Shown here piece after piece: positions 34,277 to 47,943 of a stretch of 64,000 nucleotides of DNA. The stretch is from Cupriavidus oxalaticus. Its GTDB lineage: Bacteria > Pseudomonadota > Gammaproteobacteria > Burkholderiales > Burkholderiaceae. The notes beneath the pieces were generated by a model, which was not told the origin of the DNA, did not search any database, and saw only the letters and a list, made by a program, of their open reading frames with translations. The stretch is taken from NCBI RefSeq assembly GCF_004768545.1, contig NZ_CP038634.1:806001-870000 (forward strand), given 5' to 3'. Both the position numbers and the translations under genes were made by a program. How positions within the stretch are numbered: the first letter of the stretch is position 1; each line of letters starts with the position of its first letter.

Positions 34277-34960
34277 TCAGCCATCGACGAACGAGACGAA
34301 CTCGTCCAGCTCCAGCTTGCAAAGCTCCATGTTGTTTTCGGGGATGCTGTTGTCCGCATAGCCGAGTGACATCCCGGCCACGACCATCTCCCCGTCGGGA
34401 ATGGCGAGTCCTTCACGAAGCACCGGCGATTGCAGCGACCAGATCTGCTGCGGGCAGGTGTCCAGCCCCCGCGCGCGAGCGGCCAGCATGAGGTTCTGCA
34501 GGAAACAGCCGTAGCAGATGAAGCTGGCCCATTCCAGGCGCCGGTCCATGGTGAAGATCAGTCCCACTGGCGCATCGAAGAACCGGAACTGCCGTTCGAC
34601 GTCGCGCCGGCGCCCGGCGATATCGCTCCTGTGCACGCCCTGCGCATCGCCCAGCATCCCGCGAAACGTGTTGAAGCGCGACGCAAATGGCGCCGGCAAT
34701 TCCTTTGGGAAGAAAGGGTAATCGGGCACCAGTCCCTCGGGATCGGCGCGATACGCCTCGACCGCGGCACCGGCGATTTTCTCGCGCGCCTTTCCGGTCA
34801 GCACATAGCAGCGCCAGGGCTGCGTGTTGCTCGAACTCGGCGCGTATTTCGCGACCGACAGGATGTCCCTGACAGTCTCCATCGGCACCGGCCGGTCAAG
34901 GAAGCCGCGCTTGCTGTGGCGTCCGCGGATCAGCGCTTCCGTCATCTGCATTGTCTCCAT
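34277..34960 (-). CDS. FMN-dependent nitroreductase
   Basis: A 227-residue nitroreductase of the NfsB/NfnB fold, with RHSKRGFLDRPVP and SVAKYAPSSSNTQPW near the N-terminus and GMSLGYAD near the C-terminus. It could reduce nitro groups or quinones using NAD(P)H. GGAG is 8 bases before the ATG at 34960; the ATG at 34966 is too close to it. It is divergent from the dioxygenase-containing operon across 257 bases and is plausibly co-regulated with it. Confidence 0.85.
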   Translation of the reverse strand: METMQMTEALIRGRHSKRGFLDRPVPMETVRDILSVAKYAPSSSNTQPWRCYVLTGKAREKIAGAAVEAYRADPEGLVPDYPFFPKELPAPFASRFNTFRGMLGDAQGVHRSDIAGRRRDVERQFRFFDAPVGLIFTMDRRLEWASFICYGCFLQNLMLAARARGLDTCPQQIWSLQSPVLREGLAIPDGEMVVAGMSLGYADNSIPENNMELCKLELDEFVSFVDG

Positions 34961-35217
34961 CTTCATGTCTCCGTTCTTGTGGTGGGGGTCGCTACGGTGG
35001 AAAAGATCATAGACACGTCCCCTGCCTTGTGAAGATGGCAATGCTTGAATGCTTCGTTCGGCAGCAGCGAACGACGGCGCGCGACCGCGCAGGCCCGGCG
35101 TCCAAATTCCTGAACGCTTCGTTCCCCGATCCCGCGCGCACGCGCGCACGCGATTCGCCTATCTTCCTACACGGGATCGGAGCCCCGATCGCATATGAAA
35201 ACATGGGGAGACGTGGA

Positions 35218-36354
35218 ATGAACCAGTTGAAATGCCTGCCGCAGGAAGAGATTGCCTGGGGACACGACGTGCTGAAGACCGTCGCTGCCTCCATGGAGAA
35301 CTACGGCATCCGCCGTCCGATCACGTTCACGGTCGAATTCCTTGAGGCATTGAACCGCGAGCACCTGCAGCCTGTCATCGGCGACGGCGTGGGCACCTTC
35401 ACCGGCCTGCCGCCGCATGTGCCCGATTTCGCCGTACGCGACGGGCTGCGTGCCTGCATCGAGGCCGATGCGGCATCGATCATCGCCCTCGGCGGCGGCT
35501 CCGTGCTCGACGCCGCAAAGGCAGTCTCGTACCAGCATTTCCAGCAGACGGGCCGCTACCTGCCGATTGCGGCGATTCCGACGACCTTGTCGGGCTCGGA
35601 GTTCTCCCACTACTTCGGCGTGACGGAAACGGACGGCCCGCAGAAGTTCAAGCGCAGCTATGCGGTGCGCGAAACGACACCGCGGCTGGTGGTGCTCGAT
35701 CCCCGCATGATCGTCGACACGCCACGCATGCTGCTGCTGAGTTCGGCCATCAAGGGGATCGACCATGCGGTGGAAGGCATGCGCCGGGTCGACGTGGATC
35801 ACCCTCACGCCATCCTGGCCGCCAGGGGCGTGGAGCGCTTCCTTGCCGTGCTGGAGAAGTGGCCGCGCAAGCTCGAAACGCGCGAGGCCATCGCGGGCGG
35901 CCTCGTGTCGACCGACGACCTGCTGCAGCTTCAGCTCGCCGCGTGGCAGTGCTACTTCTATCCCGCTTCGGTCATCTACGGCCTGAGCCATCGCATCGGC
36001 CACATCCTCGGCGGGACCTTCGGGGTACCGCACAGCGTGACTTCGTGCATTGCGCTGGCGCCCGTCATCCGCGCCTGCGCCGGCGCCTATGGCCGCAAGC
36101 TCGAGATCTTCGCCACGGAACGCGGCAGCCGCCCGCCCGCCGCATTTCTCGCCGACCGCATCGAGGCAGCCGTGGATGCATTGCAATTGCCCAGCCGGCT
36201 CCGCGACCTCGATTTCGATCGGGCTAAGCTTCCCGAGATCGCGGCCCTGCTCAGGCAGAACTATCCTTCCGAAGTCGGCGACCTTGGCGACCTTGGCGAC
36301 CTTGGCGACAATGCCGGCACCAGGCTGGATGCGCTGCTGGAGAGCCTGTGGTAA
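35218..36354 (+). CDS. Iron-containing alcohol dehydrogenase / maleylacetate-reductase-like
   Basis: A 378-residue group III dehydrogenase. GGGSVLDAAKA (~100), IPTTLSGSEFS (~127) and metal ligands in AIKGIDHAVEG and SHRIGHILGGTFGVPHS are in place. The wording VRETTPRLVVLDPRM and the HILGGTFGVPH segment lean to maleylacetate reductases, which reduce maleylacetate to 3-oxoadipate. The C-terminus has an added GDLGDLGDLGD stretch from a 9-bp tandem repeat (~36277-36309). GGGGAG lies upstream. The stop overlaps the next start (TAATG). It is the first gene of a four-gene operon. Confidence 0.82.
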   Translation: MNQLKCLPQEEIAWGHDVLKTVAASMENYGIRRPITFTVEFLEALNREHLQPVIGDGVGTFTGLPPHVPDFAVRDGLRACIEADAASIIALGGGSVLDAAKAVSYQHFQQTGRYLPIAAIPTTLSGSEFSHYFGVTETDGPQKFKRSYAVRETTPRLVVLDPRMIVDTPRMLLLSSAIKGIDHAVEGMRRVDVDHPHAILAARGVERFLAVLEKWPRKLETREAIAGGLVSTDDLLQLQLAAWQCYFYPASVIYGLSHRIGHILGGTFGVPHSVTSCIALAPVIRACAGAYGRKLEIFATERGSRPPAAFLADRIEAAVDALQLPSRLRDLDFDRAKLPEIAALLRQNYPSEVGDLGDLGDLGDNAGTRLDALLESLW

Positions 36355-37775
36355 TGACCGGCCAGCCATCCTACAGCTTCCCGCATCCCGCGGGCCTGCG
36401 CCACGCGCTTGCGGCCCTGGCCAGCCGGCGGATCACGGCGACGGGCCTGACCGAAGAGGCGCTCCTCCGCGCGCAAGCCAGCAAGCAATCGCTCAACGCG
36501 TTCGCCGCCATTGACCAGGACCGCGCGCTGCAGGCCGCGGCGGAGAGCGACCGCCGCTACGGCGAAGGCAGCCAGCGTCCGCTGGAAGGGCTGCCCATCG
36601 CCATCAAGGACCTGATCGACACGAAGGGCATCGAAACACTGTATGGATCTGCCGCCTACCGCGGCAATGTTCCCGCTGCCGATGCCGACATCGTGAAGAC
36701 ACTGACCGGATGCGGCGCCATCGTCATCGGCAAGACCACCACCCACGAATTTGCGTGGGGCGTGACGACCGCCAGCCCGAGCTTCGGCGACACCCTGAAT
36801 CCCCTCGACCATTCCCGCATTCCCGGCGGCTCCAGCGGCGGCGCCGCGGCGGCGATCGCGCATGGCGCGGTCATGGCGGGCGTGGGCACCGATACCGGCG
36901 GCTCGGCCCGTATCCCGGCCGCGCTGTGCGGTGTCGTCGGCTTCAAGCCGACGCTCGGCACGCTGTCCACGCGCGGCGTGTTTCCGCTGGCGGCCACCTG
37001 CGACCACGTCGGCCTGCTGGGCGGACAGGTCGATGACGTGCTGGTGCTCGCCGATGCCGCTGGCATCGACATCCGCCGCAGCGATGCCACGCCTTCCGCC
37101 CGCCTCGGCATCGTCAGGCAGATCGCGCCGGTGCCGCTGAGTCCTGAGGTCGCCAGCGCATTCGACGAGGCGGTGGAACAACTGGCGCAGCGATTCAGCT
37201 GCGTCGACCTCGGCGAGACCCGCCGGTTCGACGCCATGTTCGATATGGTGTTCGATGCCTTTGCGGCCATCGTTCTTATCGAGGGCGGAATCGAGCATTT
37301 CCGACGCCACGACTGGGATCGCATCGCCACGCACTACAACCCGGAAACGGTCGACAGACTCAGGCGTGCACAGGCCATGGACCTGCGCGCCTATGCGTCG
37401 GCCCACCAGTCGAGGCGGCATTTCACGGCCCGGCTGCATGAAGCGATGTCGACACTCGACTATCTCGTGCTGCCGACCTGCCCCTGCACCGCCCCGCCCC
37501 GCGATGCCGGCACGGTCGACATCGGCAACTGGACCGGCACCGTCCGCGAGGCCCTGATGACCTACACCGCGCCGTTCAACGTCGCGGGATTTCCCGCCAT
37601 CTCGATTCCGCTGCCGTCCCGCGTCGGCGGCCTTCCAGCCGCATTGCAGGTCGTCGGCAGGCCCGGCGGCGACGGCGCGCTGCTGCAGGTCGCGCAGCAG
37701 ATCGAGTCGATGCTGGGGACCGTCTCCGTTGCACAAGACTTGCCTGACCACACCACCACGAGGAGACCAGAATGA
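36354..37775 (+). CDS. Amidase-signature hydrolase
   Basis: A 473-residue GatA-like amidase. The Ser-cisSer-Lys triad is complete: K in PIAIKDLID, serines in PGGSSGGAAAAIA and in GTDTGGSARIPAALCG. It should hydrolyse an amide, possibly an N-formyl or aryl amide made upstream in the pathway (inference). Start and stop overlap both neighbours (TAATG and ATGA), so it is translated together with the dehydrogenase and the haem dioxygenase. Confidence 0.87.
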   Translation: MTGQPSYSFPHPAGLRHALAALASRRITATGLTEEALLRAQASKQSLNAFAAIDQDRALQAAAESDRRYGEGSQRPLEGLPIAIKDLIDTKGIETLYGSAAYRGNVPAADADIVKTLTGCGAIVIGKTTTHEFAWGVTTASPSFGDTLNPLDHSRIPGGSSGGAAAAIAHGAVMAGVGTDTGGSARIPAALCGVVGFKPTLGTLSTRGVFPLAATCDHVGLLGGQVDDVLVLADAAGIDIRRSDATPSARLGIVRQIAPVPLSPEVASAFDEAVEQLAQRFSCVDLGETRRFDAMFDMVFDAFAAIVLIEGGIEHFRRHDWDRIATHYNPETVDRLRRAQAMDLRAYASAHQSRRHFTARLHEAMSTLDYLVLPTCPCTAPPRDAGTVDIGNWTGTVREALMTYTAPFNVAGFPAISIPLPSRVGGLPAALQVVGRPGGDGALLQVAQQIESMLGTVSVAQDLPDHTTTRRPE

Positions 37776-38680
37776 AAGATTCCGTCAAGCCCGCATCCCG
37801 GGCACCGGCAGAAACGCCAGCCGGGCGCACGCCATACAGTGACTGGTTGCAGACAGACGTGCTCCACTCGCTGCAGCACCCGGTCAGCGATCATCCCGGC
37901 GAGCACGCCTGGATCGTATCGGCGCAGGTGTCCGAGCTCTACTGGATGCTGATCATCAGGGAAATCCAGGCCGCGCAGGCGCAATTGCGTGCCGATGACC
38001 TGGCCGGCGCATGCCGCACGCTGCGGCGCGTGGTTGCCCACCACGAGCCGCTCAATGCCACCTGGCGCTCCATCGCGTGGATGACGCCGGTCGACCTGCT
38101 GGCCATCCTGTCCTGCGTCGGGCCGAAGTTTGGCAAGGACACCGCACTGCAGGGCTGGACGTTCCGGCAGATGGTCTACCTGCTCGGCATCAAGCAGGGG
38201 GAGCACCTGCAGCACTTCCTGCCGCAGCCCCGGCGCTGGGAGCAGCTCAGCAAGGCGCTGGCAGAGCCGAGCCTGTATGACGACGTGCTCGCCCACCTGA
38301 GCCGCAAGGGCTTCGCCGTGCCGGCGCTGGCACTCGACCGCGATTTCAGCGTGCCCTACGCGCCGGACAAGGCGGTCGAAAACGTCTGGCGCGACGTCTA
38401 CGCCGACCCGGACCAGCACCGCGAACTGCAGCAACTCGGCGAGACGCTGGCCGATATTGCGGAGGGATTCTCCGCATGGAAGCACCTGCACCTGATGGCC
38501 ACGCGCCGGACCTTCGGCGCCCGGCCGGCCTACTTCGGCACCGAGGGCATTGCCTGGCTGCTGCCGACCATGAACGAGATCCCGTTCCCTGAACTCTGGT
38601 CCGCGCGCGGCTTCATCGGCGATCCGCCCGCGGTGTGTCCGCACGCGCGCGGACAGGCCGGCGCCCGGGCTGCGGAGTGA
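37772..38680 (+). CDS. Tryptophan 2,3-dioxygenase-like haem protein
   Basis: A 302-residue member of the TDO superfamily, with WIVSAQVSELYW (~47-58), FRQMVYLLG (131-139) and WKHLHLMATRRTFG (236-249) aligning to the TDO core. The proximal haem ligand fits H240. The carboxylate-binding arginine fits R132. The distal histidine position of TDO is A51. This suggests an oxygenase on an indole-like or other electron-rich ring rather than a standard KynA, and there is no kynurenine-pathway gene next to it. The start overlaps the amidase stop (ATGA). Confidence 0.72.
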   Translation: MKDSVKPASRAPAETPAGRTPYSDWLQTDVLHSLQHPVSDHPGEHAWIVSAQVSELYWMLIIREIQAAQAQLRADDLAGACRTLRRVVAHHEPLNATWRSIAWMTPVDLLAILSCVGPKFGKDTALQGWTFRQMVYLLGIKQGEHLQHFLPQPRRWEQLSKALAEPSLYDDVLAHLSRKGFAVPALALDRDFSVPYAPDKAVENVWRDVYADPDQHRELQQLGETLADIAEGFSAWKHLHLMATRRTFGARPAYFGTEGIAWLLPTMNEIPFPELWSARGFIGDPPAVCPHARGQAGARAAE

Positions 38681-38709
38681 CGTGACTAACCATCAGCTGG
38701 AAGAAACCC

Positions 38710-39756
38710 ATGCGCAATGACTTGTTGAGAAACCTGGCAGCCGGTGCCCGCGCTGCCATCGCCGATCCTGCGCGGATCTCCATCGTGGGAAGCGATGCAA
38801 ACCCGCGCTTTGAGCTGTTCCACGCGGCCAGTTCGCTGTGCTCGCAGAAGGTCCGCACGGTGCTGTCCGAGAAGCAGTTGCCATACCGGTCGAACGACAT
38901 GATGATCCTGAGTTCGATGGGTCCGGACGGCGTCGTTCCCGCGGAGCACTATCACCCGCCCTATGTACGCCTGCGGCTGATGGCCGGACTGGAAATCGGG
39001 CGGGAGTTCGTCAGCGGCTATAGCGGGCGCCCTTCCGTGGATACCGACGGCTTCGATCCGTGCGCGGTGCCATTGCTCGTCGACTACGAAGCCTCCCGCG
39101 TGATCGCGGATTCCCGGCGGATCTGCTGCTATCTCGACGCGGTATCGCGCGCGCCCGTCCAGCTCTTGCCGGACGATGACCAGGCGCGTGCCGCGGTGAT
39201 GCGCCAGGTGGGCATCGTCGACCAGATGCCGAACGGCGCCCTGCTATATGGCTTTCATCCCGACGCCGACGGGCGGCCAGACGCGCTCAAGACGGTCATG
39301 GAAACGGTCTACGACCACAAGATCGCAGCGCTCGAGGCCATGCTGGCCGGCAATGGCGACGACGCTGAACTCGTTGCCGCCTATCGCGCCAAGCTCGCGA
39401 AGGAGCGCGGCGGCCGGGCGGTCCGCCGCGATGCCGCATTCCAGCGTGCCGCGCACCATCACGTCGAAGGCGTGTTGAAGGAGCTGGACCGCACGCTGGG
39501 GGCCGCACCGGCCCTGTATGTTGCGGGACACGCGTTCTCCCTTGGAGATGTGCTGTGGGGTGTCAACCTGGTGCGGCTGACGTACCTGGGGCTCGCGCCG
39601 ATGTGGCACGACCTGCCCAACGTTGCCCGCTATGTCGAAACCCTGGTCAAGCGGCCTTCGCTCTGCAGGGAGGCGGTCCGCGCCACGATCGACTCGCTGC
39701 CGCCATCGCGACAGATGGATGCCTTGGGAACCTGCATGGAGACGGCGCCGGCCTGA
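38710..39756 (+). CDS. Glutathione S-transferase-like protein (PcpC/LinD type)
   Basis: A 348-residue protein with an N-terminal thioredoxin-like GST domain (ASSLCSQKVRTVLSEK, residues 39-54) and a long helical C-terminal domain. C44 in SLCSQKVR corresponds to the active cysteine of tetrachlorohydroquinone reductive dehalogenase (SICSMKTR in PcpC, from memory). The length is close to LinD. This suggests glutathione-dependent removal of a halogen or other leaving group from a hydroquinone. It lies 29 bases after the dioxygenase and is followed by a strong terminator. Confidence 0.72.
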   Translation: MRNDLLRNLAAGARAAIADPARISIVGSDANPRFELFHAASSLCSQKVRTVLSEKQLPYRSNDMMILSSMGPDGVVPAEHYHPPYVRLRLMAGLEIGREFVSGYSGRPSVDTDGFDPCAVPLLVDYEASRVIADSRRICCYLDAVSRAPVQLLPDDDQARAAVMRQVGIVDQMPNGALLYGFHPDADGRPDALKTVMETVYDHKIAALEAMLAGNGDDAELVAAYRAKLAKERGGRAVRRDAAFQRAAHHHVEGVLKELDRTLGAAPALYVAGHAFSLGDVLWGVNLVRLTYLGLAPMWHDLPNVARYVETLVKRPSLCREAVRATIDSLPPSRQMDALGTCMETAPA

Positions 39757-39799
39757 GCGGTAGCCAGCTTGTCATCGGGCTGTGCCGATGAAGCAATCG

Positions 39800-39829
39800 G
39801 GCGGAGACTCCGAGTCTCCGCCTTTTTTT
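39800..39829 (+). terminator. Intrinsic terminator of the Fe-ADH/amidase/dioxygenase/GST operon
   Basis: GGCGGAGACT-CCG-AGTCTCCGCC forms a perfect 10-bp stem with a 3-base loop, followed by seven T. This is the clearest intrinsic terminator in the window. It also separates the convergent flavodoxin gene. Confidence 0.95.
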
Positions 39830-39847
39830 ACGATCAGGCTTTTACTT

Positions 39848-40495
39848 TCAGGCTGCCACGGGCTCCGGCTGGACGTGCAGGGCACGGGCGACAGTCGTCA
39901 CCCTGCGGCCCTGGTACCGTGCAACGTCGAGGTGATCGTCGTCGGGCTTCACGGTGTCACGGTGCGAGACGTGCGTCGCGCCGTAGGGGGTGCCGGCCTT
40001 GAACATCGCCGCGTCGGCATAGCCCAGCGGCACGATGATCAGGCCCAGGTGGGCCATGGGCGTGTAGGCCGCCAGCAGCGTGGCTTCATTGCCGCCGTGG
40101 CGCGAGGACGTCGTGCCGAACACCGAGCCCACCTTGCCATTGAGCTTGCCCGCGAACCACAGGCCGCCGAGCCCGTCGATATAGGCCTTGAGTTCGGTCG
40201 AGATGGTCCCGAACCGCGTCGGCGTGCCGAACACGATGGCGTCGGCCCACTCGGCATCGGCTTCGGTCGGCGCGTCGTATTTCGCGTTCATCTCCGTGGC
40301 GTTCTCGAGCCAGCCCGGCGCCTGCCGCATGACGTCGGGGCCGACGACCTCCCGCGCGCGCCGCATGCGGACTTCGGCGCCGGTATCGAGGGCCCCCTCG
40401 GCGACAGCCTTGGCCAGCATCTCGGTGGAGCTGTTGCGTGAATAGAAAACGATCAGTACCTTTGGCTTGCGCATATCGATCCCCGGCAACGTCAT
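39848..40495 (-). CDS. WrbA-like NAD(P)H:quinone oxidoreductase
   Basis: A 215-residue flavodoxin-like enzyme with FYSRNSSTEMLAKAVAEGA for FMN phosphate binding, FGTPTRFGTISTELKAYIDGLGGLW and FGTTSSRHGGNEATLLAAYTPMAHLGLIIVPLGY, typical of WrbA. It would reduce quinones to hydroquinones by two electrons, keeping the ring-cleavage substrate reduced. The start overlaps the stop of the dioxygenase gene (ATGA), so the two are made together. Confidence 0.87.
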   Translation of the reverse strand: MTLPGIDMRKPKVLIVFYSRNSSTEMLAKAVAEGALDTGAEVRMRRAREVVGPDVMRQAPGWLENATEMNAKYDAPTEADAEWADAIVFGTPTRFGTISTELKAYIDGLGGLWFAGKLNGKVGSVFGTTSSRHGGNEATLLAAYTPMAHLGLIIVPLGYADAAMFKAGTPYGATHVSHRDTVKPDDDHLDVARYQGRRVTTVARALHVQPEPVAA

Positions 40496-41442
40496 GCGGA
40501 AATGGGCTCGAGCCGGCCCAGCAGCTCATCCTTGCGATCCACCAGCCAGGGCGGAAGCTGGAACTCCTCGCCAAAATGGCCGGGCTCTTCATCGATCGCG
40601 AAGCCGATGTCGGTGGTCGTGGCCTCGAACATCACGCCGCCGGGCATCTTGAAGTACATCGAGCGGAAATAGTTGCGGTGCACCGATTCGGAGGTGTCGA
40701 TGTAGCCCAGCGCAAACAGCTTCTCCTTCAGGATCGCCTGCTGTTCGACGTTGTCCACGGCGAACGCCACATGGTGGATCGTACCCTCGCCGTAGATCGA
40801 CGAGCCCTGGTGCCGGTCCGGCTCATGCTGGAACTCGACGACCGTGCCCGGGCCGCCGGTGTACGTCTCGAAGCGGTAGTAGGGTCCCGACTGGCCAACG
40901 TGGCGGAAGCCGATCGCTTCGCTCATGAAGCGGATCGATTCGGCGACATCGCGCAGCGACAGCGTGATGCTGTGCACGCCGCGGATGGCATGGGCCTCGG
41001 GGATATCGCTGGCCACGCAGGCCGGACGCGGGTCCAGATCCGTTTCGACGAGATCGAACTCGATGCCGCACGGATGCTGGAACCGCTGGCGGCGCTCGCC
41101 GAAGCGCTCGACGATCTCGCTGTCATACGGCACGTTCATGGCATCGAAGCGGCTGCGCCAGAACTCGAGCGAGCCCGTGGGCACCGAGTAGTTGATGACC
41201 CGCACCTGGCCCGATCCCTGGCGCGCCATGACCCCGCGCTGGCGGAACGGGAACGACGTCACCAGGGTCCCCGGATCGCCATTCGCGTTGCCGTAGTAGA
41301 GGTGGTAGATGGGATCTTCGCCGTCGAGAAGCACGGTCTTCTTCACGAGGCTCTGCCCGAGCAGCTTGACGTAGAAGTCCACATCCTCCTGCGCGTGCCG
41401 CACGCCGGCGGTCAGGTGATGAAATCCCTTGAGCATTGTCAT
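40492..41442 (-). CDS. LinE/PcpA/MhqO-type hydroquinone ring-cleavage dioxygenase
   Basis: A 316-residue two-domain vicinal-oxygen-chelate dioxygenase. Likely Fe(II) ligands are H157 (GVHSIT), H223 or H224 (TIHHVAF) and E273 (VMFEATT), with spacing like PcpA. The N-terminal block FYVKLLGQSLVKKTVLLDG and IYHLYYGNANGDPGTL is close to LinE. It should cleave (substituted) hydroquinone between a hydroxylated carbon and its neighbour, giving an acyl halide/maleylacetate or hydroxymuconic semialdehyde. AGAGGA precedes ATG at 41442. It is divergent from a LysR gene. Confidence 0.85.
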   Translation of the reverse strand: MTMLKGFHHLTAGVRHAQEDVDFYVKLLGQSLVKKTVLLDGEDPIYHLYYGNANGDPGTLVTSFPFRQRGVMARQGSGQVRVINYSVPTGSLEFWRSRFDAMNVPYDSEIVERFGERRQRFQHPCGIEFDLVETDLDPRPACVASDIPEAHAIRGVHSITLSLRDVAESIRFMSEAIGFRHVGQSGPYYRFETYTGGPGTVVEFQHEPDRHQGSSIYGEGTIHHVAFAVDNVEQQAILKEKLFALGYIDTSESVHRNYFRSMYFKMPGGVMFEATTTDIGFAIDEEPGHFGEEFQLPPWLVDRKDELLGRLEPISA

Positions 41443-41718
41443 TGTCCTCTCCAGTTTGAAATAAGCATGTAGAAACAGCGCAGAGCCGCTCCTGCGCAAC
41501 AGCTTATGTCGCCGGATTCCGCTTGGGCAGCCGTCACGGGTTGTACGCAGGGTTCGGCAAACTTGGACAATGGCGCCCGGTGCGGCGCGGTGCGCCCGGT
41601 GGGCACCAAGGCTTGCCCGGATGGCAGTGGGCGCCGGCGCTGGAGTATGATCGGGCGTCACCCACTCGCCCCCTCAGCAAACCCGCCGGCATTGGAATGG
41701 CCGGCGAATCCCCATGCC

Positions 41719-42630
41719 ATGCTCGATCTGAAGGACGTCTATTACTTCGTGCAGGTGGTCGACCGCGGCGGATTCACCGCGGCCGGCGAGGCGCTCCGGC
41801 TTCCGAAGTCCACGCTGAGCCACCGCGTCAAGGAACTGGAAGCCTCGCTGGGCGTGCGGCTCATCAACCGGACCTCGCGCCAGTTCGCGATGACGGAAGT
41901 GGGCCAGGAGTTCTACCAGTACGCCATGGCGCTGATGCGCAGTGCCGAGCTTGCCGAAGAAGCCATGCGCCAGCGGCTGGCGGAGCCGAGTGGCGTGATC
42001 CGCGTGACGGTGGCTGTGGACATCGCCCAGTTCGCGCTGCGCCACGTGCTTCCGACCTTCCTCTCCGACCACCCCAAGGTGAGAATCGACGAAACCGCCA
42101 CGGACAGGATCGTGGACATCGTCGGCGAGGGCTTCGACCTGGCGATCCGCGGTCATGTCGGCCAGCTGCAGGACTCCAACCTGGTCCAGCATCCGCTGGC
42201 CAGGACGCCGTGGTATCTCTTCGCCGGGCCCGACTATCTCGAACGGACGTCGGTGCCGACGCAGCCCGAGGAACTGGCGTCTCACTCTATCATCGCCATG
42301 GCGGGCAAGGGCGCGTCGCAATGGCAATTGCAGGGGCCGGACAAGCGCGTGGCCACCGTGCCGTTTGAACCGAGGTTCCTGAGCAACAGCCTGATCTCGC
42401 TGAAAGAAGCGGCGTGCGCGAACGTCGGCATCACCGCGCTGCCGGTGTACGCCTGCCAGGCCGAGCTGAAGGCGGGCGGGCTGCGGCAGATACTGCCGGA
42501 ATGGATCGCCGCGGACGCCCGTATCACCGCCCTCATTCCCTATCGCACGGGCCTGCTGCCGGCGGTCCGCACACTGGTGGACTATCTCGCCGTGGTGCTG
42601 CCGGAGGTGACGGCGTTCGACCGGCACTGA
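41719..42630 (+). CDS. LysR-type regulator of the hydroquinone dioxygenase locus
   Basis: A 303-residue LysR protein with its helix-turn-helix in VDRGGFTAAGEALRLPKSTLSHRVKELEASLGVRLINRTSR. The remainder is the substrate-binding domain. The start at 41719 puts the motif at the family-normal distance. It is divergent from the LinE-like/WrbA pair and probably activates that pair, and maybe the opposite operon, with a pathway intermediate as coinducer. Confidence 0.88.
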   Translation: MLDLKDVYYFVQVVDRGGFTAAGEALRLPKSTLSHRVKELEASLGVRLINRTSRQFAMTEVGQEFYQYAMALMRSAELAEEAMRQRLAEPSGVIRVTVAVDIAQFALRHVLPTFLSDHPKVRIDETATDRIVDIVGEGFDLAIRGHVGQLQDSNLVQHPLARTPWYLFAGPDYLERTSVPTQPEELASHSIIAMAGKGASQWQLQGPDKRVATVPFEPRFLSNSLISLKEAACANVGITALPVYACQAELKAGGLRQILPEWIAADARITALIPYRTGLLPAVRTLVDYLAVVLPEVTAFDRH

Positions 42631-42699: not shown

Positions 42700-42897
42700 C
42701 TTCGCCAGCTCCAGGCACGCTCAAACCGCTCGAACAGGAAATCGATGAAGACGCGCAGCTTCGCGGGCTGGTGGCGGCGGCATTGGTATGCCACGTTTAT
42801 CGTCAGCCTGGGAAGCTGCCGGTCCGCCAGCACCGCCACCGGCCGGCCGGCCACGATGTCTTCGTAGATGATGTGCCTCACCCACGCCGCGTGCCGC
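42700..42897 (-). pseudogene. Remnant of a LysR-type regulator (C-terminal end)
   Basis: Only the last ~60 residues remain in frame: HAAWVRHIIYEDIVAGRP, then VAVLADRQLP and AKLRVFIDFLFERFERAW, the usual end of a LysR substrate-binding domain. No N-terminus or start exists upstream; the reading enters unrelated remnant sequence at 42898. It is probably dead. Confidence 0.6.
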
Positions 42898-43197
42898 GAG
42901 ACTATCGCGCCGCGGTGATTCGCGCTCGAATTCGCGGATCACCAGGTTGCCAAGGATGGCATCCCTTCCCGCTTCGATCAGGCGATCGACGTCACTCTCG
43001 GGCAGGCGAAGCCTCGTCGGCAGCTCGTTCAGACTTGCAGCACGCTCCTTGTCGAGGGACTCAAACGAGATCCGCGTGACCAAGAATTCCACTTCGTTGC
43101 AACGCCAGCCTGGGCGGCGTGCGGCGATCTCCTGCAGCCGGGAATTCGGCATCCCGCACCGATACGCCACGAGGTCGTCGCGCCACTGCTGCATCAT
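42898..43197 (-). pseudogene. Remnant of a patatin-like phospholipase gene (C-terminal part)
   Basis: On the minus strand the reading gives HQMMQQWRDDLVAYRCGMP, VEFLVTRISFESLDKE, SLNELPTRLRLPESDVDRL and IEAGRDAILGNLVIREFERE. The LNxLPTxxxLPxxxVDxLIxAG pattern is typical near the end of patatin-like proteins. Neither start nor full domain is present. Its 46-base end (42898-42943) occurs again at 46692-46737. Confidence 0.5.
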
Positions 43198-43252
43198 TTG
43201 ATGGATGGGCGATCCGGCCAGCATGCCGTCCGGCGCCACGATAGTGGTCAGG
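43198..43252 (-). pseudogene. Nitrilase gene fragment with an internal deletion
   Basis: Two blocks match the intact nitrilase at 46817-47830. Block 43198-43218 matches 46871-46891 with one mismatch, and 43219-43252 is identical to 47066-47099. The 174 bases between these blocks in the nitrilase are missing here. The translated remnant reads LTTIVAPDGML. Confidence 0.8.
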
Positions 43253-43402
43253 TATTCGAGCCGTTCAACTGCTCGCACGTCGGCTGTGCATCGGACTGCG
43301 GACATCGACCATCTAGCGCGTTCAAAGCCTCGTTGCGCTCCTGTGATGACGGAGCCAGAACGACAATCGCGAGGTCAAGCGGCACCACCCGATAAACGAG
43401 CG

Positions 43403-46816: not shown

Positions 46817-47830
46817 CTATGCGGTCAGTGTAGGACTGGGTGCTACTGTGGCGTGCAGGTCTCCCGGCTCTTGATGGACGGGCGATCCGGCATGCGCGGC
46901 GCGCTCGTGCAGGTGGGCGGTATCCGTGCGGTCGATCATGAGACTAAGCAACTCTGGTCTGTTGTAGTGTCCCGCCGAGTCCATCAATACCTTGCGCCGG
47001 TCGATCAAAGAGAAATCAAGATCGGCGACGACCTCACCCTCACCCGAGCGGATAGGTTCGCCCAACAGCATGCCGTCCGGCGCCACGATAGTGGTCAGGC
47101 AACCGCCGGAAATCGGCTCGATGTCGCACCCCGTATCCCTAATGATTTGCGCCTGCTGGTCAGGGTCCAGCCACGCTGTTGCGTTCACGACGAAGCAGCC
47201 GGACTCAAGCGCATGCTGCCGGATATTGATTTCCATCCTTTTGGCAAACCCTTCGCCGAAGGCTGACCCCGGATACATGGCCGAATGGATCTGCTCGCCG
47301 TCGGCGATCATCGCGTAGCGCGCGAGCGGATTGTTGTGCTCAAAGCATGCGAGCTGGCCGATTCGTCCGACCTTGCTGTCGACCGCGCGAAGGCCCGATC
47401 CGTCGCCCTGCCCCCAGATCATGCGTTCGAAATAGGTGGGCGTGATCTTGCGGCGGCGCTGGATCAGGGTCCCGTCCGCGTCGAAGAGCAACTGCGTGTT
47501 GTAGATGGTGCCTCCGTCACGCTCATTTACACCAATGGACACCACCATGCCGGCTTTGCGGGCCGCCTCGGCGATCGCGTGGGTGGCCGGGGACGGCACC
47601 GTCACGGACTGCTCGAGCAACCTGAGATGCTCATTTCCGGCAAGAAGCTGAAGGCCCGTCTGGACCGCTGAAAAATACGGGTAGTACGGCACCACGGTTT
47701 CCGGAAACGTGGCGAACTGCACCCCCTTCTCACCAAGCTCCCGGATCTTCCGCACGACTTTATCCACGGTTGCCTCACGGCTGTAAAGCACGGGGCTGAT
47801 CTGGACTGCTGCTGCTTTGATGACTGTCAT
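46817..47830 (-). CDS. Nitrilase
   Basis: A 337-residue C-N hydrolase that should convert a nitrile to carboxylic acid and ammonia. The catalytic triad is E44 (FPETVVPYYP), K128 (RRRKITPTYFER) and C162 (GQLACFEHNNPLARYA). The CFEHNNPLARYAMIADGEQIH wording is that of true nitrilases rather than amidases. The start at 47830 is 12 residues before the fold; a weak AAGGAA lies upstream. A C-terminal amidase remnant lies just upstream on the same strand, and a truncated second copy lies at 43.2 kb. Confidence 0.88.
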   Translation of the reverse strand: MTVIKAAAVQISPVLYSREATVDKVVRKIRELGEKGVQFATFPETVVPYYPYFSAVQTGLQLLAGNEHLRLLEQSVTVPSPATHAIAEAARKAGMVVSIGVNERDGGTIYNTQLLFDADGTLIQRRRKITPTYFERMIWGQGDGSGLRAVDSKVGRIGQLACFEHNNPLARYAMIADGEQIHSAMYPGSAFGEGFAKRMEINIRQHALESGCFVVNATAWLDPDQQAQIIRDTGCDIEPISGGCLTTIVAPDGMLLGEPIRSGEGEVVADLDFSLIDRRKVLMDSAGHYNRPELLSLMIDRTDTAHLHERAAHAGSPVHQEPGDLHATVAPSPTLTA

Positions 47831-47943
47831 TTGAAAAATTTCCTTTGAATGGGACGCGGCATCGTAGTGCCGCATCGAAGTTGGATAGGTGTATCCAGTG
47901 CCGAGCGTCGATGTGGCTGCCTCCGGCTCACGGTGGGTCCGTC

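Follow-up and report, generated by a model that had tools for sequence, protein, structure and literature searches.

The 64,000-nucleotide stretch of the Cupriavidus oxalaticus genome analysed here (NCBI RefSeq assembly GCF_004768545.1, contig NZ_CP038634.1, positions 806,001 to 870,000; hereafter the window) carries, at positions 34277-42630, eight genes that very probably (probability close to 0.9) form an mnp-type cluster for the reductive catabolism of 3-nitrophenol-like compounds. They encode a nitroreductase, a protein of the iron-containing alcohol dehydrogenase (Fe-ADH) family, an amidase, a protein resembling tryptophan 2,3-dioxygenase (TDO), a glutathione S-transferase (GST)-fold protein, WrbA, a LinE/PcpA-like dioxygenase and a LysR regulator. 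Clusters of this type are already known, and the remaining novelty is their regular haem-enzyme companion annotated as tryptophan dioxygenase. This TDO-like protein is conserved and under selection as a companion of the nitrophenol pathway; judged from its residues and its predicted model, it is a TDO-fold protein with the haem-ligating histidine but not a tryptophan dioxygenase.

Probable assignment of the locus to the mnp type

The mnp cluster of Cupriavidus sp. CNP-8 handles 2-chloro-5-nitrophenol and 3-nitrophenol and comprises a LysR regulator (MnpR), a nitroreductase (MnpA), an amidase (MnpE), a maleylacetate reductase (MnpF), a LinE-like aminohydroquinone dioxygenase (MnpC, 42% to LinE) and a GST (MnpD, 40% to LinD), with the hydroxylaminophenol mutase MnpB on another contig (PMC5604080; this and the other articles are cited from parts of their text). 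In that strain 2-chloro-5-nitrophenol induces mnpA, mnpB, mnpC and mnpD 38- to 518-fold, an mnpA knockout no longer uses either nitrophenol, and both nitroreduction by MnpA and cleavage of hydroquinone and chlorohydroquinone by MnpC have been demonstrated (PMC5604080). Like the window, the mnp clusters of CNP-8 and of Cupriavidus pinatubonensis JMP134 bring together a nitroreductase, a LinE-like dioxygenase, a LinD-like GST, an amidase, a maleylacetate reductase and a LysR gene (PMC5604080); in the window, too, the amidase, Fe-ADH, GST and LysR genes all stand together. An earlier note on this DNA had stated that no described pathway has this gene set and had named conserved synteny in a characterised pathway as what would refute its proposal; mnp provides just that. 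The same note was right to expect a lower set that follows the hydroquinone dioxygenase/maleylacetate logic and to take MnpC as the comparison.

All eight genes are found on plasmid p2 of C. pinatubonensis HN-2, which belongs to the species of JMP134, in an order unlike that of the window: WrbA-dioxygenase-nitroreductase on one strand and LysR-FeADH-amidase-TDO-GST on the other. Within this set the window proteins show 80% (ring-cleaving dioxygenase), 79% (nitroreductase), 75% (LysR) and 74% (GST) identity to their HN-2 counterparts. The TDO-like gene of HN-2 lies between the amidase and GST genes, and GST is the fifth gene from the nitroreductase. In JMP134, Reut_C5979 encodes a GST probably acting in 2-chloro-5-nitrophenol dechlorination and Reut_C5984 a nitroreductase (PMC2842291). 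These two numbers are five apart, which matches the GST-nitroreductase spacing in HN-2, so the TDO-like gene of JMP134 is predicted to be Reut_C5980.

PcpA is the closest solved structure to the window dioxygenase, and in positions counted by hand His9, His224 and Glu273 align with His11, His227 and Glu276 of PcpA 4huz, which we take to be the metal ligands. An MhqO-type quinone detoxification enzyme was considered for this protein and rejected, as it scored 247 bits against PcpA and 177 bits against MhqO. The likeness to the lin and pcp systems (LinD, LinE, LinF; PcpA) extends to the GST dehalogenase, the hydroquinone 1,2-dioxygenase (42% to LinE), the maleylacetate reductase and the LysR gene. 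To our knowledge, however, those pathways have no amidase, nitroreductase or TDO-like gene, and by family no upper Lin or Pcp enzyme is present among the eight genes of the cluster, to which that search was confined.

MnpC has been proposed to cleave aminohydroquinone between C1 and C2, giving an amide (PMC5604080), and this product would explain why an amidase belongs to the mnp set. Most likely the amidase hydrolyses the ring-cleavage amide. The earlier note had let it release a formyl or an amide group; the amide part fits and the formyl part does not, since a formamidase, also considered here, becomes superfluous when the proposed product is already an amide. Names in the database sources gave no identification of MnpC, and in order-level draws of 399 genomes only the genome of the window itself matched at E 1e-90.

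The TDO-like protein

The TDO-like gene (37772-38680, + strand; 302 residues) encodes a predicted TDO-fold haem protein (PF03301, 8.3e-30) that lacks the tryptophan-recognition residues and scores 237.3 bits with TIGR03036, below the curated cut-off of 390.7. We aligned 130 members (the window protein, 120 listed homologues and nine locus copies) with XcTDO and CmTDO. The proximal haem-ligating His is kept in 130 of 130, and the distal His (His55) in none (Val 99, Ala 22, Cys 7, Gly 1, Met 1). Tyr113 is replaced by Leu in 127 members, Arg117 by Leu in 125 and Thr254 by Tyr in 129, and the GTGG loop of TDO is replaced as well. In TDO, Tyr113 and Arg117 contact the carboxylate of tryptophan and Thr254 its amine. 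The TDO-like protein shares with KynA, XcTDO and CmTDO the predicted fold and the proximal haem His, but differs from them in the distal His, Tyr113/Arg117 and the loop. In MarE the distal His is reported to contact the indole nitrogen, as in CmTDO, and a role has been described for the arginine (Arg118 in MarE; PMC11904535) and for the GTGGS loop (PMC12312684). Because the contacts are gone, we rejected as substrate both tryptophan and any other alpha-amino acid bound in the TDO manner.

A separate TDO is encoded in the same genome (7.97 Mb); it is 34% identical to the TDO-like protein and has all the active-site residues tested. A branch with support 100/100 splits the TDO-like family from three canonical TDOs (38 rows against 3, with long branches meeting there). 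The AlphaFold model (29 sequences, pLDDT 77, pTM 0.77) best matches CmTDO 2nox, with TM 0.74 by query and 0.86 by target. The subfamily counts 242 proteins at E 0.001, of which 120 were used, and accompanies nitrophenol-type gene sets in Cupriavidus, Paraburkholderia, Variovorax, Pseudomonas, Massilia and rhizobia. Where the source names its members, they are called tryptophan 2,3-dioxygenase (family protein), and a useful remainder of this work is that a subfamily so annotated lacks the residues for tryptophan.

MarE, PrnB, TyrH and SfmD of the haem-dependent aromatic oxygenase (HDAO) superfamily are His-ligated haem aromatic oxygenases that act beyond tryptophan cleavage (PMC12312684, PMC11791213). 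The predicted fold (model pLDDT 77) and the conserved ligand His of the TDO-like protein, with haem ligation predicted, would agree with this superfamily. Those four are natural-product enzymes, whereas the TDO-like protein sits in a catabolic nitrophenol cluster, a setting for which the parts consulted of both HDAO accounts mention no member (PMC12312684, PMC11791213). Nor does the CNP-8 account, in the parts consulted, give a role to a TDO-like or WrbA gene, and no word starting with 'tryptophan' occurs in its main text (PMC5604080). A literature search among open-licence PMC articles found no account of a TDO-like gene in mnp clusters.

The earlier note proposed that the TDO-like enzyme opens or oxygenates an N-heterocycle or aryl amine, that the amidase releases a formyl or amide group and that the product enters a hydroquinone route. 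Taken as upstream opening of an indole-like ring or an aryl amine followed by loss of a formyl group, this reading has in its favour the TDO fold and the gene logic of TDO followed by amidase. The lost pocket residues include those binding the amino-acid part of tryptophan, so plain indole could still fit. We nevertheless consider this route distinctly unlikely: the amidase, dioxygenase, GST and Fe-ADH already have roles in mnp, the linked upper enzyme is a nitroreductase, and the distal His that contacts the indole nitrogen in MarE and CmTDO (PMC11904535) is absent from all aligned members. Opening of an N-heterocycle by the TDO-like enzyme is unsupported.

Co-occurrence with the pathway

When the eight-gene neighbourhood was sought in other genomes, as the earlier note had advised, 34 of the 56 loci found through the TDO-like protein had the complete set of eight within roughly 20 kb, variously ordered, which goes beyond chance. 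Near the TDO-like gene in these 56 loci there are nitroreductase (48), LysR (48), Fe-ADH (46), amidase (45), GST (44), WrbA (40) and MnpC-like (40) genes; a gene was counted anywhere in the locus stretch, provided that its match reached 44% identity and 55% coverage, and in L011, L013 and L016-L018 it is a second amidase-GST pair that was counted. Gene order differs between Cupriavidus, Variovorax and Pseudomonas, and the set remains together. Ten loci have no nearby Fe-ADH, and seven of these are in genomes with an MnpF match, so that 53 of 56 loci lie in MnpF-bearing genomes (L023 was looked up through L012, the same record).

Of 60 genomes compared within the genus, 24 have a TDO-like gene, and exactly these 24 also have the MnpC-like and MnpF-like genes. 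This count leaves out G417, which has a TDO fragment of 142 residues, and G401, whose dioxygenase match is a 42% paralogue, and keeps G440 despite partial matches (TDO-like residues 10-250, MnpC-like 1-199); apart from that fragment and that paralogue, the other 36 genomes have none of the three genes at E 1e-70. In a family draw of 259 genomes MnpC-like genes were found in 12 and TDO-like genes in the same 12, all of the genus of the window. The dN/dS of the TDO-like gene is 0.09-0.27 against 14 loci (0.06 to 0.60 for the other seven genes), and the stops inside the TDO-like matches of nine loci fall within the last 11 aligned columns.

Gene order is fluid and some loci have the TDO-like and GST genes many kilobases from the others, which is what a passenger gene in accidental co-location could look like. 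The shared 24 genomes, the 53 MnpF-linked loci and the purifying selection largely refute this idea, and G417, which has no MnpC- or MnpF-like match, retains only a TDO fragment of about 140 residues; a mere passenger is therefore very improbable.

In a plasmid collection of 72,556 records, to which main chromosomes do not belong, nitroreductase and Fe-ADH were searched at E 1e-60 and the amidase at E 1e-90, while the TDO-like search covers the best 40 of 62 records, with rows at 37% identity or less and a Cupriavidus necator N-1 fragment left out. The nitroreductase occurs in 19 records, and Fe-ADH and amidase occur together in the same 17. Full-length TDO-like genes (54% or more) are in 16 records, which among the matches listed are exactly those with both nitroreductase and Fe-ADH/amidase. 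Rhizobium WYJ-E13 has VOC, Fe-ADH and amidase genes without nitroreductase or TDO-like gene (25 kb read), and Comamonas CNB-1, Rhizobium BG6 and R. grahamii have a nitroreductase without Fe-ADH, amidase or TDO-like matches. That the TDO-like gene tracks the records with both nitroreductase and lower pathway points, weakly, to a step joining them. Plasmid pCNB of Comamonas testosteroni CNB-1 is akin to the window in its nitroreductase (72%) and carries cnbZ, encoding 2-amino-5-chloromuconate deaminase, but differs in being absent from the Fe-ADH (E 1e-60), amidase (E 1e-90) and listed TDO-like (54% or more) matches.

Two side observations come from the plasmids. L090 and L118, from pSymA of Sinorhizobium medicae, have an mnp-type set of WrbA, VOC, Fe-ADH, amidase, nitroreductase, LysR, TDO-like and GST-like genes, and its presence on a symbiotic plasmid suggests a natural substrate in rhizobia. 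On C. necator N-1 pBB1, a 138-residue TDO-like remnant lies at L120:7602-8015, and the 15 kb read there showed no further gene of the cluster; G417, whose fragment is at the same place, is probably this strain.

Possible role of the TDO-like protein

The TDO-like gene looks like a real part of the pathway. We tentatively favour, at somewhat less than even odds, a haem-dependent step on a nitrogen-bearing phenol between nitroreduction and ring cleavage. A more specific version, which we hold to be doubtful, would make it the dedicated aminohydroquinone-forming enzyme, either a haem-dependent hydroxylaminophenol mutase or an aminophenol oxygenase. As a mutase it would break the N-O bond heterolytically and move the OH to the ring, within a haem pocket that is hydrophobic and His-ligated. 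On either version, the activity of the unlinked MnpB would be a side activity. MnpB is, we assume, glutamine-synthetase-like, and the genome of the window has two PF00120 genes, one of 471 residues (GlnA-like in size). MnpB is of about 52 kDa and 99% identical between CNP-8 and JMP134, while mnpA is 93% and mnpC 94% identical (PMC5604080). A nitrogen ligand in the TDO fold has a precedent, since PrnB, a relative, binds a substrate amine to its haem (PMC11791213).

In alphaproteobacteria (six of 56 loci: L044, L049-L052, L064) the Fe-ADH and amidase genes are accompanied by another double-VOC protein in place of MnpC, while the TDO-like and nitroreductase genes are retained, which indicates that the ring-cleaving enzyme is exchangeable and that the TDO-like protein is not its substitute. 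The replacing protein has about 387 residues and is 25-36% like MnpC over short stretches; such genes lie at L044:1947-3110, L049:13791-14957, L051:3884-5050, L064:6304-7470, L118:6971-8134 and L119:10807-11961.

TDO cleaves a C=C bond beside nitrogen, and the TDO-like protein might by analogy be a dioxygenase that opens the ring of aminohydroquinone or an aminophenol to an amide, the second such enzyme of the pathway, with the amidase taking its product much as formamidase follows TDO. In the window the amidase gene overlaps the TDO-like gene, and counting the window it is directly upstream (same strand, less than 250 bases) in 26 of 57 loci; in two Acidobacteriota loci the neighbour of the TDO-like gene is an isochorismatase, a hydrolase of a different family (assigned by Pfam in L047, with the L062 protein 95% identical to it). 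We judge this rather unlikely, however, as a VOC dioxygenase accompanies Fe-ADH and amidase in 44 of the 45 loci that have both (38 MnpC-like, six other double-VOC) and the lone exception, L014, stops at a contig end. Moreover, in the 25 kb examined of WYJ-E13, VOC, Fe-ADH and amidase genes stand without a TDO-like gene, so the lower pathway seems able to work without one.

Reactive hydroxylamino and quinone species arise in the pathway, and the TDO-like protein tracks the nitroreductase where plasmids carry the lower pathway, as a protective haem protein outside the pathway proper (for instance against nitric oxide, nitroso or hydroxylamine species) might do. Such species could also form in the three plasmid records that have only the nitroreductase, yet these have no TDO-like gene; protection has no direct support and is highly unlikely.

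Several points weigh against a haem step in an mnp-type pathway. The published pathway does not need a TDO-like protein, the conversion of hydroxylaminophenol to aminohydroquinone being given to the unlinked MnpB; mnpB mRNA rose in CNP-8 and JMP134 MnpB is cited as active (PMC5604080), so a second mutase is less needed. Were MnpB a housekeeping enzyme with this as a side activity, there could still be a dedicated one. Nine of the 16 plasmid records with a TDO-like gene are from Sinorhizobium medicae, so the pattern in this collection without main chromosomes is suggestive only. The 56 loci were selected by the TDO-like protein, the genomes behind the genus and family counts are related, so that these are not independent events, and three of the 56 loci are in genomes without an MnpF match (L047 and L062, Acidobacteriota; L063, Pseudonocardia). 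As for the cluster itself, the Fe-ADH has only distant similarity to maleylacetate reductases of known structure, and the link of the cluster to the JMP134 and CNP-8 mnp clusters is made through a published gene list, the same-species strain HN-2 and the match of gene numbers, not through their mnp sequences. Finally, a comparison of the nitroreductase/Fe-ADH and dioxygenase/LysR intergenic regions of the window brought out no common motif (only 8-base matches and one GCGC dyad).

If the TDO-like protein is catalytic, a haem-dependent step of the mnp pathway as published has yet to be assigned, and a catabolic branch acting on a new type of substrate is added to the haem aromatic oxygenases; an aminohydroquinone-forming role, if true, would be a new reaction for the TDO/HDAO superfamily.

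Proposed pathway and regulation

In the pathway that we postulate, the nitroreductase would reduce the nitroarene to a hydroxylaminophenol, which would be converted to an aminohydroquinone, and the GST would remove a halogen, if present. The LinE-like dioxygenase would then cleave the C-OH/C-NH2 bond to give an amide, from which the amidase would release ammonia, and the Fe-ADH would reduce maleylacetate. WrbA probably keeps quinone (imine) by-products reduced. Beyond nitroreduction by MnpA and cleavage by MnpC, which were demonstrated in CNP-8 and not for the window, these steps are proposals of the CNP-8 authors, that for WrbA being our own.

The LysR protein would control both transcription units. 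The earlier note's view that the opposing units belong together is borne out in CNP-8, where the same substrates strongly induce mnpA, mnpC and mnpD alike (PMC5604080), and by analogy with these expression data for homologous genes both units of the window may be co-regulated.

Gene layout

Reading of open reading frames (ORFs) and a terminator scan placed the eight genes, their overlaps and the terminator where the earlier note had described them; the start codons are our choice, and families were assigned with Pfam and NCBIfam profiles. The MnpA-type nitroreductase (34277-34966, - strand; 229 residues; PF00881, 2e-31) diverges from the Fe-ADH operon. This begins with the Fe-ADH family protein, an MnpF-type maleylacetate reductase by its gene set (35218-36354, + strand; 378 residues; PF00465, 3.9e-22), which a TAATG overlap joins to the MnpE-type amidase-signature amidase (36354-37775, + strand; 473 residues; PF01425, 9.7e-93). 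The amidase contains GGSSGG and GTDTGGS motifs, which we take to be the amidase signature, and an ATGA overlap links it to the TDO-like gene. Next comes the MnpD/LinD-like GST-fold protein, a putative reductive dehalogenase (38710-39756, + strand; 348 residues; GST_N_2, 3.6e-08). An intrinsic terminator (39799-39823, + strand), an 11-bp stem followed by a T run, lies between the converging units; the scan gave three sites against 3.9 expected in shuffles, so this call rests on stem quality and position.

On the opposite strand, WrbA NAD(P)H:quinone oxidoreductase (39848-40495, - strand; 215 residues; NF002999, 181.5 bits, above the cut-off of 141) is joined by another ATGA overlap to the predicted MnpC-type (LinE/PcpA-like) aminohydroquinone ring-cleaving dioxygenase, a double-VOC protein (40492-41442, - strand; 316 residues; PcpA 4huz, E 2.2e-72). 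The MnpR-type LysR regulator (41719-42630, + strand; 303 residues; PF00126, PF03466) diverges from the dioxygenase.

Locus variation and mobility

The two genes to the left of the cluster adjoin each other without it in G436, where the mnp genes are on another contig, and in G423, where they are about 98 kb away; therefore, either the cluster or its flank has moved. Among the matches listed, only G408 has the whole left flank just before the cluster.

Seven loci (L011, L013, L014, L016, L017, L018, L091) have no amidase between the Fe-ADH and TDO-like genes and, following the latter, only a partial GST or none; the same loci have an amidase-GST pair (about 73-78% to those of the window) with its own LysR gene nearby, and their TDO-like gene is unbroken. 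Two Variovorax loci (L026:15650-16315, L033:16346-17095) have a second, shorter and divergent (48-54%) TDO-like copy just after Fe-ADH. In the Acidobacteriota loci L047 and L062 the TDO-like gene stands between an isochorismatase-family hydrolase and a pyrroloquinoline quinone (PQQ)-type dehydrogenase (L047 by Pfam; L062 proteins 95-96% identical). C. necator A5-1 (L012/L023/G682) has two mnp-type sets in one genome; in the second, about 0.2 Mb separates the TDO-like and GST genes from the Fe-ADH, amidase, LysR and dioxygenase genes.

Beyond the LysR gene of the window, two direct repeats about 3.8 kb apart (42898-42943/46692-46737, 46 bp, 93%; 43219-43252/47066-47099, 34 bp, exact) frame a stretch of lower GC (0.58-0.64 per kb) with a TetR gene and, by eye, an NAD-binding-like ORF. 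The ORF at 42721-43305 and a nitrilase-like ORF at 46817-47875 have a 16-residue scrap in common, with 14 identical residues.

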